From NCBI GenBank assembly GCA_017469925.1, contig JAFUFK010000018.1:1-44035 (forward strand): 44,035 nucleotides of DNA, read 5' to 3'. A program made the position numbers and the translations under genes. The notes beneath the pieces were generated by a model. It had not been told where the DNA came from. It ran no database searches and saw nothing but the letters and a program-made list of their open reading frames with translations. Source of the DNA: Bacteroidaceae bacterium. Lineage in GTDB: Bacteria > Bacteroidota > Bacteroidia > Bacteroidales > Bacteroidaceae. Shown piece after piece: positions 1,450 to 5,370 of this stretch (position 1 is the stretch's first letter; each line of letters opens with the position of its first letter).

Positions 1450-1457
1450 TACCTTTG
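1450..1457 (+). promoter_or_regulatory. -7 box TACCTTTG driving the structured leader
   Basis: TACCTTTG matches TAnnTTTG exactly and sits in a T-rich stretch. A TTTG occurs at 1434-1437, closer than the usual ~20-bp spacing, so the -33 part is weak. Transcription would start near 1464, just before the folded region, giving a leader of about 270 nt before the methyltransferase ATG at 1734. Confidence 0.6.
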
Positions 1458-1463
1458 TAGCAG

Positions 1464-1733
1464 TTCGGGGAGAAATCCGGACTGACGAAGCATTTGCTTA
1501 TTCAAAGGACGTCCTTGAAGTTTGGCCACAGATAGACGCACTAATAGAATAAAGCAGATGTCCACTTAACGTGGACGTCTGAATTGTCTATTCAGTGCGG
1601 GTTAGGCCAAACACCCAAGGACGTGGACGAGGAAGATTGTCCACGTTTCTGTGTCCTAATGGGGACTGGGTGTTTGGATTAGCGGTACGTTCTTAACGAA
1701 AAGCAGAACGTATAACTAATAACGCCTAACCCT
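1464..1733 (+). ncRNA. Structured leader RNA upstream of the methyltransferase/HNH module
   Basis: No protein gene is apparent, but the stretch is dense in long complementary segments. One rod consists of 1513-1527 with 1605-1620 (CCTTG/CAAGG plus GTTTGGCC/GGCCAAAC), 1537-1547 with 1588-1599, and an 11-bp tip 1555-1565 with 1571-1581 over a 5-nt loop. A competing fold uses the same bases: 1599-1607 (GGGTTAGGC) with 1724-1732 (GCCTAACCC), and CCAAACACCCA at 1607-1617 with TGGGTGTTTGG at 1667-1677, enclosing 1621-1628/1639-1646. A last hairpin pairs 1686-1693 with 1705-1712. The closing helix ends one base before the ATG at 1734, so it could control translation, or the RNA could be a separate functional component. 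I do not recognise a known RNA family. The base pairing is directly visible; the function is unknown. Confidence 0.65.
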
Positions 1734-2750
1734 ATGGTTAAACGAACGACAAGGCTGCAAGGCAGCAAACAGAAACGGGACGACGAGTATTACACATTGT
1801 TCCAAGACATAGCGGACGAGGTCAGTCTGTATCTACCTCAACTGCGTGGCAAACGTATCCTCTGCCCATGCGATTGGGATGAGAGTTATAACGAAGAAAT
1901 TGTATATAAAGAAGAGGGCTATGTGCTGGGGCGTGACCTTTTCGGAGCAGAAGGCACTATCAAGAACATAGATATTGCCAGAACTAAAGAGAAGATAGAG
2001 AAGCGGATGGACTTGGTGAAGTGTCAGTTCGTTTATTATCTGCTAAATCAGGCTGAAGAATGTGGCATCCGTTCTATCAGTGTAAGTGGCTATAACCCCA
2101 AGACGAATGAGGGTGTCCGTTTCCAAGATATTGACTACAGCTATTATGATGTTATCATCACCAACCCACCATTCAGCCAGTTCGATGAATTTATCGACTT
2201 GCTGATAAAGGAGGATAAGGAGTTTTTGGTGATTGGTCCTCAGACAGCCCCCACAGAAAAGAGCATCATTCGTCATTTCCAAGAAGGAAAAATCCGCATT
2301 GGTTACCATTATCATCTGAGTGGTTTCAATCGTCCAGATGGAACGACACTGCCAAAACAACATAATACACCACGTAGCTGTATGTGGTACACAAATTTAC
2401 AGGTTGACCCTCAGACAAAAGAGCTTACACTTACTGCATCATACGATGAAAATCCTGAGAAATATCCCAAAGTCGTAAATTATGATGCGATATATATTCC
2501 TACAGTTGCAGACATACCACATGATTACTTTGGCGAAATGGTTGTCCCCGTAACTTTTATGCAGAAATATAATCCCAAGCAGTTCGATATTGTTGGATCA
2601 AGCTTACAATTAGGTAAACCCATAAAAGATTTTGTAGAACTTGATGCCATCTATGAAAAGGGGGGCAGGCGCTTTTATTTAGCAGAAGGTAATAAGCATT
2701 ATCGTCGTCTTTGGGACAGAATGGTTATTAAACGTAAAAAGGAGAACTAA
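1734..2750 (+). CDS. EcoRI-type adenine-specific DNA methyltransferase
   Basis: 338 residues. The catalytic motif of N6-adenine methyltransferases, NPPF, is at residues 144-147 after the strand YYDVIIT. The segment RILCPCDWDES (residues 41-51) and the later FLVIGPQTAPTEK resemble the EcoRI-methylase family, which lacks a classical glycine-rich motif I. The enzyme would transfer a methyl group from S-adenosylmethionine to adenine in a specific DNA site. The ATG at 1734 directly follows the closing helix of the structured leader. The stop is 3 bases before the start of the DUF262-HNH gene, so the two are almost certainly co-transcribed and probably form a modification/restriction pair. Base composition is A+T-richer than in neighbouring genes, suggesting acquisition. 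The recognition sequence cannot be read from the protein. Confidence 0.85.
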   Translation: MVKRTTRLQGSKQKRDDEYYTLFQDIADEVSLYLPQLRGKRILCPCDWDESYNEEIVYKEEGYVLGRDLFGAEGTIKNIDIARTKEKIEKRMDLVKCQFVYYLLNQAEECGIRSISVSGYNPKTNEGVRFQDIDYSYYDVIITNPPFSQFDEFIDLLIKEDKEFLVIGPQTAPTEKSIIRHFQEGKIRIGYHYHLSGFNRPDGTTLPKQHNTPRSCMWYTNLQVDPQTKELTLTASYDENPEKYPKVVNYDAIYIPTVADIPHDYFGEMVVPVTFMQKYNPKQFDIVGSSLQLGKPIKDFVELDAIYEKGGRRFYLAEGNKHYRRLWDRMVIKRKKEN

Positions 2751-2753
2751 GAT

Positions 2754-3854
2754 ATGACAGTAAAAGACTTATACGAGAAAGTTGTCAACGGTATTATCAA
2801 CAGCGACATCGAATTGCAGCGTGCCATTGTCTATGATGCCGATAAGCAGGCACTGGTCATTGACAGCATTTACAGAGGCATACCTCTACCCGCTTTCTAT
2901 CTGTGGCAACGTGAGGATGGCAAATTAGAGGTACTTGATGGCAAACAGCGCATTGAAGCCATCAAGAAGTTTAAACAGGGTAACCTGAAATATGAGGGCA
3001 AGACATGGAAAGCATACGCATACGATAGCGATTTGCAGCAAGTGGTAGATAATACAGACCTGACAACTATCATTTGCAGTGGTACGGAAGATAAGAAGCG
3101 AGAGATTTTCAACCGTATCAATACTTTGGGTGTGGCTCTTTCTAAGTTTGAAGTGCTCAACGGACTGTATCACGGAAACTACATCGAAGGCCTGAATGAT
3201 TATTTCGTGCAAGACGCAAGTGTCCGTAAGGTTTTGCCAAGCGCTTCTGTTGACAGAGGAGATAACAAATACCATCTTCTGGAGTATATTTACTATGTAC
3301 GCAACAACAGAGTATTCCCCAAAAGAAGCGAGTTGCACGACTATGTACAACAGCACAAGGATGAGTCGTTCAACGAAGATTTCAAGAAGATAAAGCCCTA
3401 TATTAGTTTTATCCGTGATGTCTTTGGCGACGGGTCGAAAATCGGAAGCGTGCTGAAGTTCAGACTATCAGTAGAGTATCTGAAGGACAGAGCAATTTGG
3501 CTGCAACACAAAGATGACATCTGCAAGGACTGCAATACGTTCATGAAGAGCGAAGGCTATAAGTTGTCATCAACTAAAGACAAGGATATAGAGGCGATGA
3601 TATTGGGTATCGTTAGTAACCTGCGTGTAGATCCCAAACGTCTTTTTACGGCAGACGACAAGGCAGAATTGCTTTCAAGACTCACACCGAACGATAAAGG
3701 ACTATTTGAATGCCAGATATGCCATCAACACTTTGCATCTGATGAACTAACGGTAGACCATATTAAGCCTTGGAGTAAAGGCGGTCGCACAGTTCTATCG
3801 AATGCACGGTTGGTATGTAGGGTTTGCAATAGTAGAATGGGGAATCGACAATAA
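2754..3854 (+). CDS. DUF262 (GmrSD/ParB-like) protein with C-terminal HNH nuclease
   Basis: 366 residues. The N-terminal half is a DUF262 domain with the hallmark DGKQR at residues 62-66 and the preceding IPLPAFYLWQ; this fold occurs in modification-dependent nucleases such as GmrSD and in phage-defence proteins such as SspE and BrxU. The last ~47 residues form a zinc-bound HNH nuclease: Cys320 and Cys323, VDHIKPWSKGG with His336, Asn350, then Cys355 and Cys358-Asn. The usual DUF1524 nuclease of GmrSD is replaced by this short HNH. It starts 3 bases after the methyltransferase stop. The inferred role is restriction of DNA whose modification state differs from that made by the partner methylase; whether it cuts unmodified or modified DNA is open. 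Confidence 0.87.
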   Translation: MTVKDLYEKVVNGIINSDIELQRAIVYDADKQALVIDSIYRGIPLPAFYLWQREDGKLEVLDGKQRIEAIKKFKQGNLKYEGKTWKAYAYDSDLQQVVDNTDLTTIICSGTEDKKREIFNRINTLGVALSKFEVLNGLYHGNYIEGLNDYFVQDASVRKVLPSASVDRGDNKYHLLEYIYYVRNNRVFPKRSELHDYVQQHKDESFNEDFKKIKPYISFIRDVFGDGSKIGSVLKFRLSVEYLKDRAIWLQHKDDICKDCNTFMKSEGYKLSSTKDKDIEAMILGIVSNLRVDPKRLFTADDKAELLSRLTPNDKGLFECQICHQHFASDELTVDHIKPWSKGGRTVLSNARLVCRVCNSRMGNRQ

Positions 3855-3875
3855 TAAAATCACTGCCGACGCTAT

Positions 3876-3977
3876 ATGGTGAAAAAAGTCCTAAGGGCAT
3901 GGGCACATAAGATGATGAACTACATTTGGGCAATTCTCGTTCTCCTCGCACTTATGAAATGGGCCAAAGGCAAATGA
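3876..3977 (+). CDS. Possible 33-residue single-span membrane peptide
   Basis: A short frame opens with ATG-GTG 21 bases after the HNH stop and ends with TGA at 3975-3977. It encodes a basic start (MVKKVLRAWAHKMM) followed by the hydrophobic run YIWAILVLLALMKWAKGK, i.e. one likely transmembrane helix with basic ends. Alternative starts are the paired ATGs at codons 13-14. Placement on the same strand right behind the nuclease makes it a candidate third gene of the module, perhaps a membrane-acting toxin or effector, but a chance frame of this length cannot be excluded. It ends 15 bases before the convergent HU-like gene. Confidence 0.4.
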   Translation: MVKKVLRAWAHKMMNYIWAILVLLALMKWAKGK

Positions 3978-3992: not shown

Positions 3993-4631
3993 TTACTTCT
4001 TCTCCACATACACCTTGTGGCTGAGGCGCCCCTGGGCGACGATGGGAACGGACTTGTCGCTGTCCATTTCGCGCAGTTCGCGACTGGCCGTCGTGCGCGA
4101 GAGGCCGGAGAGCAAGACGTAGTCGGAAAGGCGCAGAAAGCCATGCTCGCGGATGTAGGCGAGGGCCAGTTGGATGCGCTCCTCCCGCGTGGTGCCGGGG
4201 CGGTGGATTTCGCGTGTCCCCTGCTTGTCGCGGTGCAGGCGGTGGGCACAGCGCTCGTCGATGTCGCGCACCCACCGGCGCTGGGCCTTGAAGTGTACGT
4301 CGCGCACGCTCACCCTTCGGGCATTGGGCTCGCCCCCACGGTGCTGCTCGGGCGTGCCGGCTTCGTAGTCGTCGAGTCCCAGTGCCAGCGAGAAACTACC
4401 CATGCCGTCCAGCGACACCGTGTAGCCGTCGGCCAGCAACTCGCCCATCGTCCTTATCATGGTGTCCACCATGCCACGCAGTTCGCCCTCGCCCATGACG
4501 CGGTAGGTCTGGCGCATGCGCCGCACGAGTTCGGCTGTGTCCATTGCGCCCTCCGAGCGCATCACGTAGTAATACTGTTGTTCTCCCGTGCCCCTAAGGT
4601 CGGGCATCTCCCGTTTGAAGTATTTCGGCAT
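3993..4631 (-). CDS. HU-like DNA-binding protein with C-terminal winged-helix-like part
   Basis: 212 residues. The first ~125 residues match the divergent Bacteroidales HU family (HU-HIG type): an opening strand (MPKYFKREMPDL), helices with TAELVRRMRQTYRVMGEGELRGMVDTMIRTMGELL, the turn GYTVSLDGMGSF, and a basic arm region. The last ~70 residues (TREERIQLALAYIREHGFLRLSDYVLLSGLSRTTASRELREM) look like a winged helix-turn-helix. Such proteins bind DNA as dimers; targets are unknown. The promoter is TTTG-20 bp-TATCTTTG (4705-4736), followed in gene sense by GCATCGGG, and inverted repeats lie directly upstream at 4741-4802. The second HU-like gene at 38002 has the same promoter layout. A structural or local regulatory role is plausible. 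Confidence 0.8.
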   Translation of the reverse strand: MPKYFKREMPDLRGTGEQQYYYVMRSEGAMDTAELVRRMRQTYRVMGEGELRGMVDTMIRTMGELLADGYTVSLDGMGSFSLALGLDDYEAGTPEQHRGGEPNARRVSVRDVHFKAQRRWVRDIDERCAHRLHRDKQGTREIHRPGTTREERIQLALAYIREHGFLRLSDYVLLSGLSRTTASRELREMDSDKSVPIVAQGRLSHKVYVEKK

Positions 4632-4704
4632 AATGTTGTTTGTTTTGGTTCTCTCTAATGCTTAACTTGGAAGTTCCCGATGCTAAGCATCAGACTTCCC
4701 GATG

Positions 4705-4736
4705 CAAAGATAGTAAGAATACGGTGCCTGACCAAA
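4705..4736 (-). promoter_or_regulatory. Promoter of the first HU-like gene
   Basis: On the minus strand TTTG (plus 4733-4736) is followed after exactly 20 bp by TATCTTTG (plus 4705-4712), a full Bacteroidetes -33/-7 pair. The next bases are GCATCGGG, identical to those after the -7 box of the HU-like gene at 38002-38499. Confidence 0.75.
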
Positions 4737-4740
4737 TTCT

Positions 4741-4802
4741 AAGTTTGGAATGTGCGTTCCAAACTTATGAACGCACGTACCAAACCTTGGAACGTGCGTT
4801 CA
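4741..4802. repeat. Pair of inverted repeats upstream of the HU-like promoter
   Basis: Two perfect inverted repeats sit beside the -33 box. The first has arms AAGTTTGGAA (4741-4750) and TTCCAAACTT (4757-4766) with 6 bp between. The second has arms TGAACGCACGT (4768-4778) and ACGTGCGTTCA (4792-4802) with 13 bp between. The core GTGCGTTC appears three times (4752-4759 and 4794-4801 direct, 4769-4776 inverted). A further small palindrome AACTTGGAAGTT is at 4664-4675, and TTCCCGATGC is repeated directly at 4674-4683 and 4696-4705. They look like operator sites, possibly for the HU-like protein itself. No protein gene is seen in 4632-4854. Confidence 0.7.
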
Positions 4803-4854
4803 GAACTTTGGGAATCTCTATGCCATGTAAGGGTTTACTCCGCCCTTCGTTTTG

Positions 4855-5370
4855 TCATGGTCTTCTTTTATTAGATTTCCGATGTTCCCTTACCATCTCT
4901 ATGGCCTCCTTACCCGTCAGGTGCTCTATGTCGAAACGGATGGCGAGCATACGGGCCAGACCCTTTTCCAGTTCCTTCTGCAGACTCTCTTCGTCATTGG
5001 GGTTGTACCTCTCGCCCAAGAGGCGGGCAGCCTTGAGTTTCTCAGCCTCATCCTCAACGATGTGCACCCGGCCGAAGACTATCACACTGCGGTAGAATGT
5101 GGTGTACGCTTTCGGTTGCACCACATCCTGCTCGATGACACAGAAGGATGCCTGAGGGTAATTCCTGATGGCATCGACCTTGTGACCTTCGAGCGCGCTG
5201 TGGAAGTAAAGCCGCCCGTCGGCATAGACGTAGCTCAATGGCACGGCATAGGGATAGCCTCCGTCGCCCAACACGGCCAGGGTTCCGGAAGTTGCCCTTT
5301 GCAGGATACCCAGACTTTCTTCGTCCGAAAGTTGTTGGCGCTTGCGCCGCATTTCCCTGAACTTTTCCAT
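4855..5370 (-). CDS. NimA-type pyridoxamine 5'-phosphate oxidase-like flavin protein
   Basis: 171 residues with the FMN-binding split-barrel pattern of the pyridoxamine-phosphate-oxidase/NimA group: MRRKRQQLSDEESLGILQRATSGTLAVLGDGGYPYAVPLSY, then LYFHSALEGHKVDAI, then the strand SVIVFGRVHIVEDEAEK. Members bind FMN or heme; some NimA relatives reduce 5-nitroimidazoles and give resistance, many others have unknown substrates. No signal peptide, so cytoplasmic. It lies 5 bases after the stop of the alpha/beta hydrolase gene and is probably in the same transcript. Resistance function cannot be concluded from the fold alone. Confidence 0.82.
   Translation of the reverse strand: MEKFREMRRKRQQLSDEESLGILQRATSGTLAVLGDGGYPYAVPLSYVYADGRLYFHSALEGHKVDAIRNYPQASFCVIEQDVVQPKAYTTFYRSVIVFGRVHIVEDEAEKLKAARLLGERYNPNDEESLQKELEKGLARMLAIRFDIEHLTGKEAIEMVREHRKSNKRRP

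Follow-up and report, generated by a model that had tools for sequence, protein, structure and literature searches.

Regulators of restriction-modification (RM) operons include C proteins, methylase repressors, and antisense RNAs in the consulted part of PMC12707154, which also describes type IV enzymes of the GmrSD/BrxU kind as a DUF262 domain combined with a DUF1524 domain. Structured RNAs lie beside defence genes in ToxIN, AbiF, retron, and omegaRNA systems (PMC5772629 and PMC12373285, each in the part consulted), and epsC (RF01735) and JUMPstart (RF01707) are among the motifs named in the consulted part of PMC2864571. Here, we analyze a block near the start of a 44,035-nucleotide (nt) stretch of DNA, hereafter the window, from a Bacteroidaceae bacterium (contig JAFUFK010000018.1 of assembly GCA_017469925.1; genome of 2.87 Mb in 28 contigs, 85.8% complete). 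In this block, a structured RNA leader precedes a gene for an EcoRI-type DNA methyltransferase and a gene for a protein with DUF262 and HNH domains. We put at roughly 60% the probability that the block is an acquired type II-like RM operon, read from one promoter through a cis-acting, attenuator-like leader of a new RNA family.

The epsC/EAR RNA and riboswitches function as cis-acting leaders, and the locus shares with them a structured cis leader with a U-tract resembling an expression platform; it differs from them in having no Rfam match and in serving defence and surface genes in Bacteroidia. Whereas ToxIN, AbiF, retron, and omegaRNA are each tied to one protein family, the leader RNA here, which likewise lies beside a defence gene, is tied to no single family. 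With type II RM systems made up of a PF13651 methylase and a DUF262-HNH protein, the locus has in common the same two adjacent genes, an invariant NPPF motif, invariant HNH residues, and type II matches in PADLOC, but a structured leader stands in front of the genes in 58 of 83 Bacteroidales loci. The N-terminal DUF262 domain is common to GmrSD/BrxU enzymes, whereas here the C terminus is HNH_5, DUF1524 is absent, and a methylase gene lies adjacent, which is not the GmrSD arrangement. Like the known RM regulators, the leader would control the timing or level of operon expression, but it is common to nonrestriction genes, and no such leader appears in the consulted part of PMC12707154.

Fold and covariation of the leader RNA

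The region 1460–1740 folds at −122 kcal/mol compared with a shuffled mean of −73.75 (z = −9.44), and 0 of 200 shuffled sequences folded as well. A preliminary description of the window, made from the sequence alone, had proposed a folded RNA of ~270 nt at this place; the RNA stood up to analysis and is conserved, covarying, and linked to defence genes. Its relatives fall into three subclasses, class A (that of the window), class B, and class C, with a common layout (Table 1): a mini-hairpin AGC-RUUN-GCU, a UUAUUC/GAAUAA pseudoknot (PKa), the nested helices P2 and P3, the inner helices P5 and H1, a second pseudoknot (S1) that straddles the 3′ strand of P3 (P3′), and a U-rich tract after the 3′ strand of P2 (P2′).

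Table 1. Mapped features of the leader and the two genes behind it (window coordinates)
Feature	Position	Strand	Basis and remarks
Promoter −7 element TACCTTTG	1450..1457	+	Bacteroidetes type TAnnTTTG
Structured 5′ leader RNA, whole	1460..1733	+	z −9.44; start approximate, placed from the promoter
Conserved RNA core	1489..1650	+	Class C covariance model R2, 67.8 bits, E 1.7e-13
5′ mini-hairpin AGC-AUUU-GCU	1489..1498	+	Motif before many methylase loci; stem invariant in 44 class B RNAs
Pseudoknot PKa, 5′ strand UUAUUC	1498..1503	+	Partner 1547–1552, GAAUAA
Helix P2, 5′ strand	1509..1517	+	Partner 1616–1624; class A 100% paired over 8 pairs counted, no double change
Helix P3, 5′ strand	1520..1527	+	Partner 1605–1612; class A 1/8 pairs doubly changed
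Helix P5, 5′ strand	1538..1542	+	Partner 1594–1598; class A 4/5 pairs doubly changed
Hairpin H1 (5′ strand 1555–1565, 3′ strand 1571–1581)	1555..1581	+	97.5% of cells paired (class A)
Pseudoknot S1, GGGU/ACCC around P3′	1599..1616	+	Invariant in class A
Hairpin T (strands 1621–1628 and 1639–1646) and U-rich tract (1646–1650, TTTCT)	1621..1650	+	Sequence; 5′ strand overlaps P2′
EcoRI-type DNA adenine methyltransferase, 338 amino acids	1734..2750	+	PF13651 EcoRI_methylase, 183.9 bits, E 6.9e-54
DUF262 (GmrSD_N)-HNH protein, 366 amino acids, probable restriction endonuclease	2754..3854	+	PF03235 and PF14279 (HNH_5)

Among the 18 distinct class A sequences, 95.9% of alignment cells are paired, and 23 cells are doubly changed compared with 6.3 after shuffling. 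P2, P3, and S1 are nearly invariant in this class, the GGAC/GUCC part of hairpin T is 100% paired, and PKa is paired in 77.8% of cells, with up to 8 of 18 rows unpaired per column, apparently through misalignment. The class B alignment, comprising 44 sequences after eight truncated, chance, or near-duplicate rows, seven divergent rows, and the class C rows had been left out, has 92.6% of cells paired, compared with 37 to 46% when the partners were slid, and 181 doubly changed cells compared with 68.8 after shuffling. Doubly changed pairs in class B make up 4/9 of P2, 3/7 of P3 (100% paired), 4/6 of P4, and 2/5 of the S1 equivalent (99.5% paired); the PKa equivalent is 98.0% paired, and no pair in it is doubly changed. 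In 51 class B sequences, the best partner site for P2 at a distance of 150 to 260 nt downstream has 7 or 8 of its 8 positions paired. For class C (22 sequences), there are 112 doubly changed cells compared with 41.6 after shuffling, and 8/9 of the P2 pairs are doubly changed; P3 seems to be misplaced in 7 to 8 of the 22 rows of this MAFFT alignment. All 36 pairs are doubly changed among 44 hits of the class C model (492 cells compared with 142.7 shuffled), in an alignment that was fitted to the model and leans toward the model's pairs. The helices covary, as a set that includes both pseudoknots.

The three subclasses are connected through their models. The class C model (R2) was built without any class A sequence and finds the RNA of the window (Table 1), as well as all seven full class A loci that it was given (67 to 77 bits); its match to L021, which is cut at a contig end, is not significant. 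The class A model matches 14 of 18 class C loci (35 to 104 bits), with L078 as a bridge, and the class B model gives weak matches at the right place in class C. Class A was detected by blastn in 20 further loci, together with a short match in L021; a class A copy is present in the cultured Prevotella communis E15-14 (locus L014). No family was found over the RNA when the window and 27 loci were scanned with Rfam 15 (4,227 models), the scan yielding one transfer RNA outside the block and hits below the gathering score, none of them over the RNA. The consulted parts of PMC8040213 and PMC2864571 name other motifs and make no link to restriction, and literature searches, preprints excepted, brought up no title or abstract beginning that describes the RNA; its novelty is provisional on that basis. 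We assign the leader to a large pseudoknotted RNA family of Bacteroidia that is apparently undescribed, a provisionally new family within a generally known kind of leader.

Distribution of the RNA and the genes behind it

R2 matches 53 of 198 Bacteroidales genomes (that of the window included), spread over 45 of 151 genera, with at most 14 copies in one genome. Among Bacteroidota other than these, it matches 7 of 147 (that of the window left out); model R1 matches 64 of 301 genomes. A 20-base 5′ motif, with one mismatch allowed, was found in 62 of 399 Bacteroidaceae genomes, compared with 5 for the reversed motif, and the exact class B motif had no match in viral contigs. The genome of the window holds 14 R2 copies at E ≤ 0.003, the window's own included, and a fifteenth at E = 0.38 looks right by eye. 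Genomes G414, G570, G467, G445, and G476 hold 7 to 14 copies each, several of them near contig ends, as if the RNA or the DNA around it were repetitive there. In some copies, nothing beyond the initial part of the RNA is left (L184:4339–4395, L169:4552–4716, and L168:4732–4828), and these are decayed or truncated leaders; one of them immediately precedes an MmeI-type gene. By eye, several copies (e.g., L231 and L233) also show another recurring 5′ element between the promoter and the core, a ACUCAGCGGAGG-like hairpin followed by CUUAUUGGNAAAUAA.

Upstream of EcoRI-type methylase genes, RNA counts were made with R1 or R2 (E ≤ 0.01) over loci from 95 sources; 30-odd other methylase loci, mostly of class A and counted by blastn, were excluded. 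All 58 Bacteroidales loci with a hit have the model end 45 to 151 nt before the methylase, and the RNA was detected in 0 of 12 loci from Patescibacteria, Bacilli, and viruses. The RNA is frequent in the Bacteroidales loci and was not found in the others, and it therefore seems to follow the host lineage and not the protein pair. In a Bacilli relative (L033), a short helix-turn-helix (HTH)–like frame, read by eye, takes the place of the RNA. The upstream regions of L067, L085, and L126 have no model match yet fold strongly (z of −3.0 to −6.9, in a count made without the duplicates and fragments L001, L036, L040–L044, L059, L094, and L108), and these three loci may hold an RNA variant missed by the models. 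The methylase of L002 is 90% identical to that of the window, yet the RNA upstream (2878–3139, compared with window 1489–1733) is of class C, which elsewhere accompanies methylases of ~30% identity; this mismatch suggests that the leader may be swapped independently of the genes behind it. Locus L110 (G011:C27, reversed strand) has two tandem EcoRI-type methylase genes (2896–3885 and 4014–5006) ahead of one DUF262-HNH gene, with a single RNA before the first methylase gene, and in L174, the RNA is followed by an apparent EcoRI-type methylase start with no long frame, probably a broken gene.

These counts bear on whether the RNA is a guide or cofactor of the DUF262-HNH nuclease or of the methylase, which would make restriction RNA dependent. 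Its presence before the methylase in the 58 Bacteroidales loci is in keeping with such a role, as is a weak resemblance of the HNH part to IscB; the IscB match, however, covers the HNH fragment only and reaches 26.8 bits against a cutoff of 175, where a match to the full protein is called for, no RNA was detected with the pair in Patescibacteria, Bacilli, or viral contigs, and the RNA family also stands before unrelated genes, many of which carry no nuclease label. We consider a guide or cofactor role very improbable and rejected assignment to the omegaRNAs. Assignment to the retrons was rejected as well, as neither of the two genes had a Pfam hit to a reverse transcriptase.

A gene follows the RNA closely in most of the copies examined. 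All 14 of the other copies in the genome of the window (the fifteenth hit included) have a same-strand open reading frame (ORF) of at least 60 amino acids 35 to 100 nt after the core, and all 20 copies examined from five other genomes have a same-strand ORF at 3 to 125 nt; these 20 were hand-picked from well over 100 model hits, with copies at contig ends partly avoided. With the class B model, 33 of 40 loci have a same-strand ORF of at least 80 amino acids within 300 nt. The genes served are diverse. An EcoRI-type methylase follows only 1 of the 14 other own-genome copies (L231, a second EcoRI-type pair). The remaining copies in this genome stand before genes such as a C5-methylase with an NgoFVII-type nuclease, HsdM, two DUF2971 proteins, a DUF4595 protein, lipoprotein-like or secreted-like proteins (by reading), and three sets of an HTH gene plus a gene for a large protein. 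These sets (L242, L243, and L244; own genome C16, C19, and C20) consist of an HTH frame of ~100 residues, which is transposase-like in L244, and then a protein of 818 to 1,181 residues; one HTH gene among the three sets was labelled by the scan.

In other genomes, the genes behind the RNA encode Zorya ZorA/ZorB; type I, IIG, and III RM proteins; a C5-methylase, and a C5-methylase with REase_II; an MmeI-type IIG enzyme (behind a truncated copy); DUF4268/PDC-S11; HSDR_N; a PDC-S48-type exonuclease; PDC-S31; an N6_N4 methylase, N6_Mtase, putAbiC, a sulfatase, and a BspA LRR protein; a kinase, a helicase, MBOAT, and an acyltransferase; and further N6_N4 methylases (the first of them type III by PADLOC), a sulfatase, and a transglutaminase. 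Many first genes are without a label (e.g., L171, L178, L180, L191, L192, and L197) or were left unscanned. Defence genes are frequent clients, yet not the sole ones, as BspA-type surface proteins, acyltransferases, and lipoproteins are served too.

Such generic clients, taken with the leader position and the pseudoknotted fold, would also suit processive antitermination, in which the RNA would bind the transcription machinery or a NusG paralogue and make the polymerase resistant to terminators in acquired operons, by analogy with the EAR/epsC RNA and UpxY-type factors. A host factor shared in this way would explain why the RNA stands before unrelated genes, but several clients appear to comprise no more than one or two genes, and the RNA matches neither epsC nor any other Rfam family; antitermination appears quite unlikely to us.

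Promoter, U-tract, and a candidate switch

The motif TAnnTTTG, which we take to be the Bacteroidetes-type promoter consensus for TACCTTTG, precedes the RNA in 40 of 46 loci, and in none of the 46 does it occur between the RNA and the gene (80 nt around and after the core end); a run of at least four U residues follows the RNA in 37 of 46. The 46 loci are a hand-picked part of well over 100 model hits. The preliminary description had already assigned the block a promoter of its own, and TACCTTTG fits that assignment. As the promoter motif lies upstream and none lies between RNA and gene, the simplest reading is that the leader is transcribed together with the gene, and we infer that it acts in cis. 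At the level of position and motif, this is the arrangement of a riboswitch or attenuator, a cis element with a promoter upstream.

The U-run after the core is equally what would be expected if the RNA were a trans-acting small RNA (sRNA) of ~170 to 200 nt that ends at the U-rich tract, acts on other targets, and leaves the gene to be expressed by leaky read-through. The compact pseudoknotted fold with covarying helices would suit an sRNA, and the many copies per genome could be co-regulated. A free sRNA, however, needs no link to a gene, so the close same-strand ORF behind 14/14, 20/20, and 33/40 copies and the lack of a second promoter motif before the gene both argue against this explanation, which we regard as unlikely.

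Under the attenuator-like reading, the switch would lie at the end of the core. T3, the strand ahead of the U-tract, has two complements: the other strand of hairpin T (T5), which overlaps P2′, and the 3′ strand of H1 (H1-3′). In class C, the fit between H1-3′ and T3 is specific to each RNA (8.74 compared with 7.37 when permuted, equalled in 0 of 5,000 permutations), as is that of each of the two ordinary hairpins (0/5,000 each), while the control strand pairs H1-5′:T3 and H1-3′:T5 gave 2,648/5,000 and 487/5,000. Among the 44 mixed hits, H1-3′:T3 gave 0/3,000 and the controls gave 643/3,000 and 255/3,000. Two seemingly exclusive pairings beside a U-rich tract suggest an attenuator-like switch. 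Transcription would start at the single promoter and run through the structured leader into the methylase gene and then into the DUF262-HNH nuclease gene. When T3 pairs with T5, a terminator-like hairpin would form before the U-rich tract; alternatively, T3 would engage H1-3′ within the pseudoknotted core. Because these pairings of T3 would exclude each other, the core probably sets how much RNA polymerase reads through into the genes, and because the leader serves unrelated proteins, the trigger probably lies outside the encoded enzymes, in a host factor, a metabolite, or a growth condition.

Several results weigh against this interpretation. In a reverse-complement control, TAnnTTTG occurred in 16 of the 46 loci; 9 of the 46 have no run of four U residues, and the tract of the window itself is interrupted. 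The fourth pair expected of a full exchange, H1-5′:T5, is weak (75/5,000 in class C and 425/3,000 in the 44 hits). Class B shows no sequence-specific covariation of H1-3′ with T3 (permutation value of 0.25), because the strands are too conserved there, and the permutation tests model relatedness incompletely. A topology score free of sequence separated the RNAs poorly from shuffled sequences, some of which reached the native score, and the class B model misses the RNA of the window. In 7 of the 40 loci found with the class B model, the next 300 nt hold no ORF of 80 amino acids on the same strand, and 25 of the 83 Bacteroidales methylase loci have no RNA detectable with R1 or R2. Transcription, termination, and regulation by the leader are all inferred from the sequence.

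To our knowledge, how bacteria time the expression of acquired defence genes is poorly known, and few regulatory RNAs have been described in Bacteroidia. One covarying leader before type I, II, IIG, and III RM, Zorya, DUF2971, and surface genes would open a way into the shared control of immunity and surface variation, and the view of the RNA as belonging to a single restriction pair is corrected. The leader model would serve as a search tool for undescribed defence operons in Bacteroidia, and the leader itself would be a target for structure and ligand work. That one leader family precedes so many unrelated genes of immunity and the cell surface is a hint that these genes share an RNA switch. 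More tentatively, and with the odds against it, a pseudoknotted switch of which genomes across Bacteroidia have as many as ~14 copies might control access to their acquired immune and surface genes as a whole, with one host signal, perhaps linked to infection or stress, opening RM, Zorya, DUF2971, and surface-modifying operons together.

The restriction pair and its surroundings

Both protein genes named in the preliminary description were borne out. The methylase gives a PADLOC match to MTase_II (E 2.4e-51) and carries the motif NPPF at residues 144–147, which is invariant in the aligned relatives; its closest loci are in rumen Prevotella-like genomes. The DUF262-HNH protein matches REase_II in PADLOC (E 5.2e-28), and its catalytic motif is intact, with H336, N350, C320, C323, C355, and C358 invariant in 15 aligned sequences. 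A methylase gene with an adjacent endonuclease gene whose motif is intact is the layout of a type II RM system, and from their sequences, we predict that the two genes form a type II-like RM operon with restriction activity. Profile searches against PDB gave one HNH fragment in one search and none in the other. The HNH protein matched 21 phage records and the methylase 75 plasmid records, all at <60% identity.

The preliminary description regarded a layout in which an EcoRI-type methylase goes with a DUF262-HNH protein plus an RNA as nonstandard; as to the two proteins, this does not hold, since their pairing is common and ordinary in Bacteroidaceae. A near full-length HNH gene lies behind the methylase in 35 of 37 related loci from named genomes, one of them (L031) with the HNH gene 832 nt beyond the methylase; of the two exceptions, L036 has a 30-residue HNH start only and L035 ends inside the methylase. 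Among 81 more distant Bacteroidaceae loci, whose methylases are ~30% identical where compared, 66 have a DUF262-HNH match at most 230 nt behind the methylase.

The same description had joined RNA, methylase, nuclease, and a possible 33-residue membrane peptide into one candidate module, naming pairs that lack both the RNA and the small frame, or the RNA apart from the pair, as evidence that would count against it. Such evidence was found in two forms: 25/83 Bacteroidales loci and 12/12 loci of Patescibacteria, Bacilli, and viruses have the methylase with no detected RNA, and 13 of the 14 other own-genome copies of the RNA precede genes that are not EcoRI type. The genome search that it proposed for the pair, RNA, and small frame recovered the RNA with covarying helices and not the small frame. 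The peptide frame itself exists (3876–3977), although tblastn against 41 related loci gave no convincing match (best E of 0.30), and we rejected it as a part of the module. With RNA and peptide found neither always nor only with the pair, the dedicated four-part module was rejected too.

The A+T-richer, acquired-looking character of the block was upheld. The block has a GC content of 0.428 compared with an average of 0.556 over equally sized windows; among 416 such windows, which overlap one another, 4 have a value as low, and these may overlap the block itself. Neither flank of the block matches any of the 41 related loci (blastn, E ≤ 1e-3), and the DNA after the HNH gene differs in all seven relatives compared. 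The block looks acquired, and the low GC content, unmatched flanks, unconserved peptide, and ordinary pair fit an acquired type II-like restriction operon.

Acquired-looking genes behind the RNA, together with its truncated copies, could also point to a DNA-level element, a recombination or integration hairpin site that moves gene cassettes. Set against this, the element has a single orientation with a promoter upstream and a U-tract downstream, its helices are kept through G-U pairs, which fits an RNA, and the flanks of related modules differ from those of the window; we hold a DNA-level element to be most improbable. An attC-type site was considered and rejected. Outside the block, repeated GAACGCACGT/ACGTGCGTTC palindromes at window positions 4735–4805, noted by eye, lie upstream of an HU-HIG gene (3993–4631, minus strand) and are perhaps its operator.

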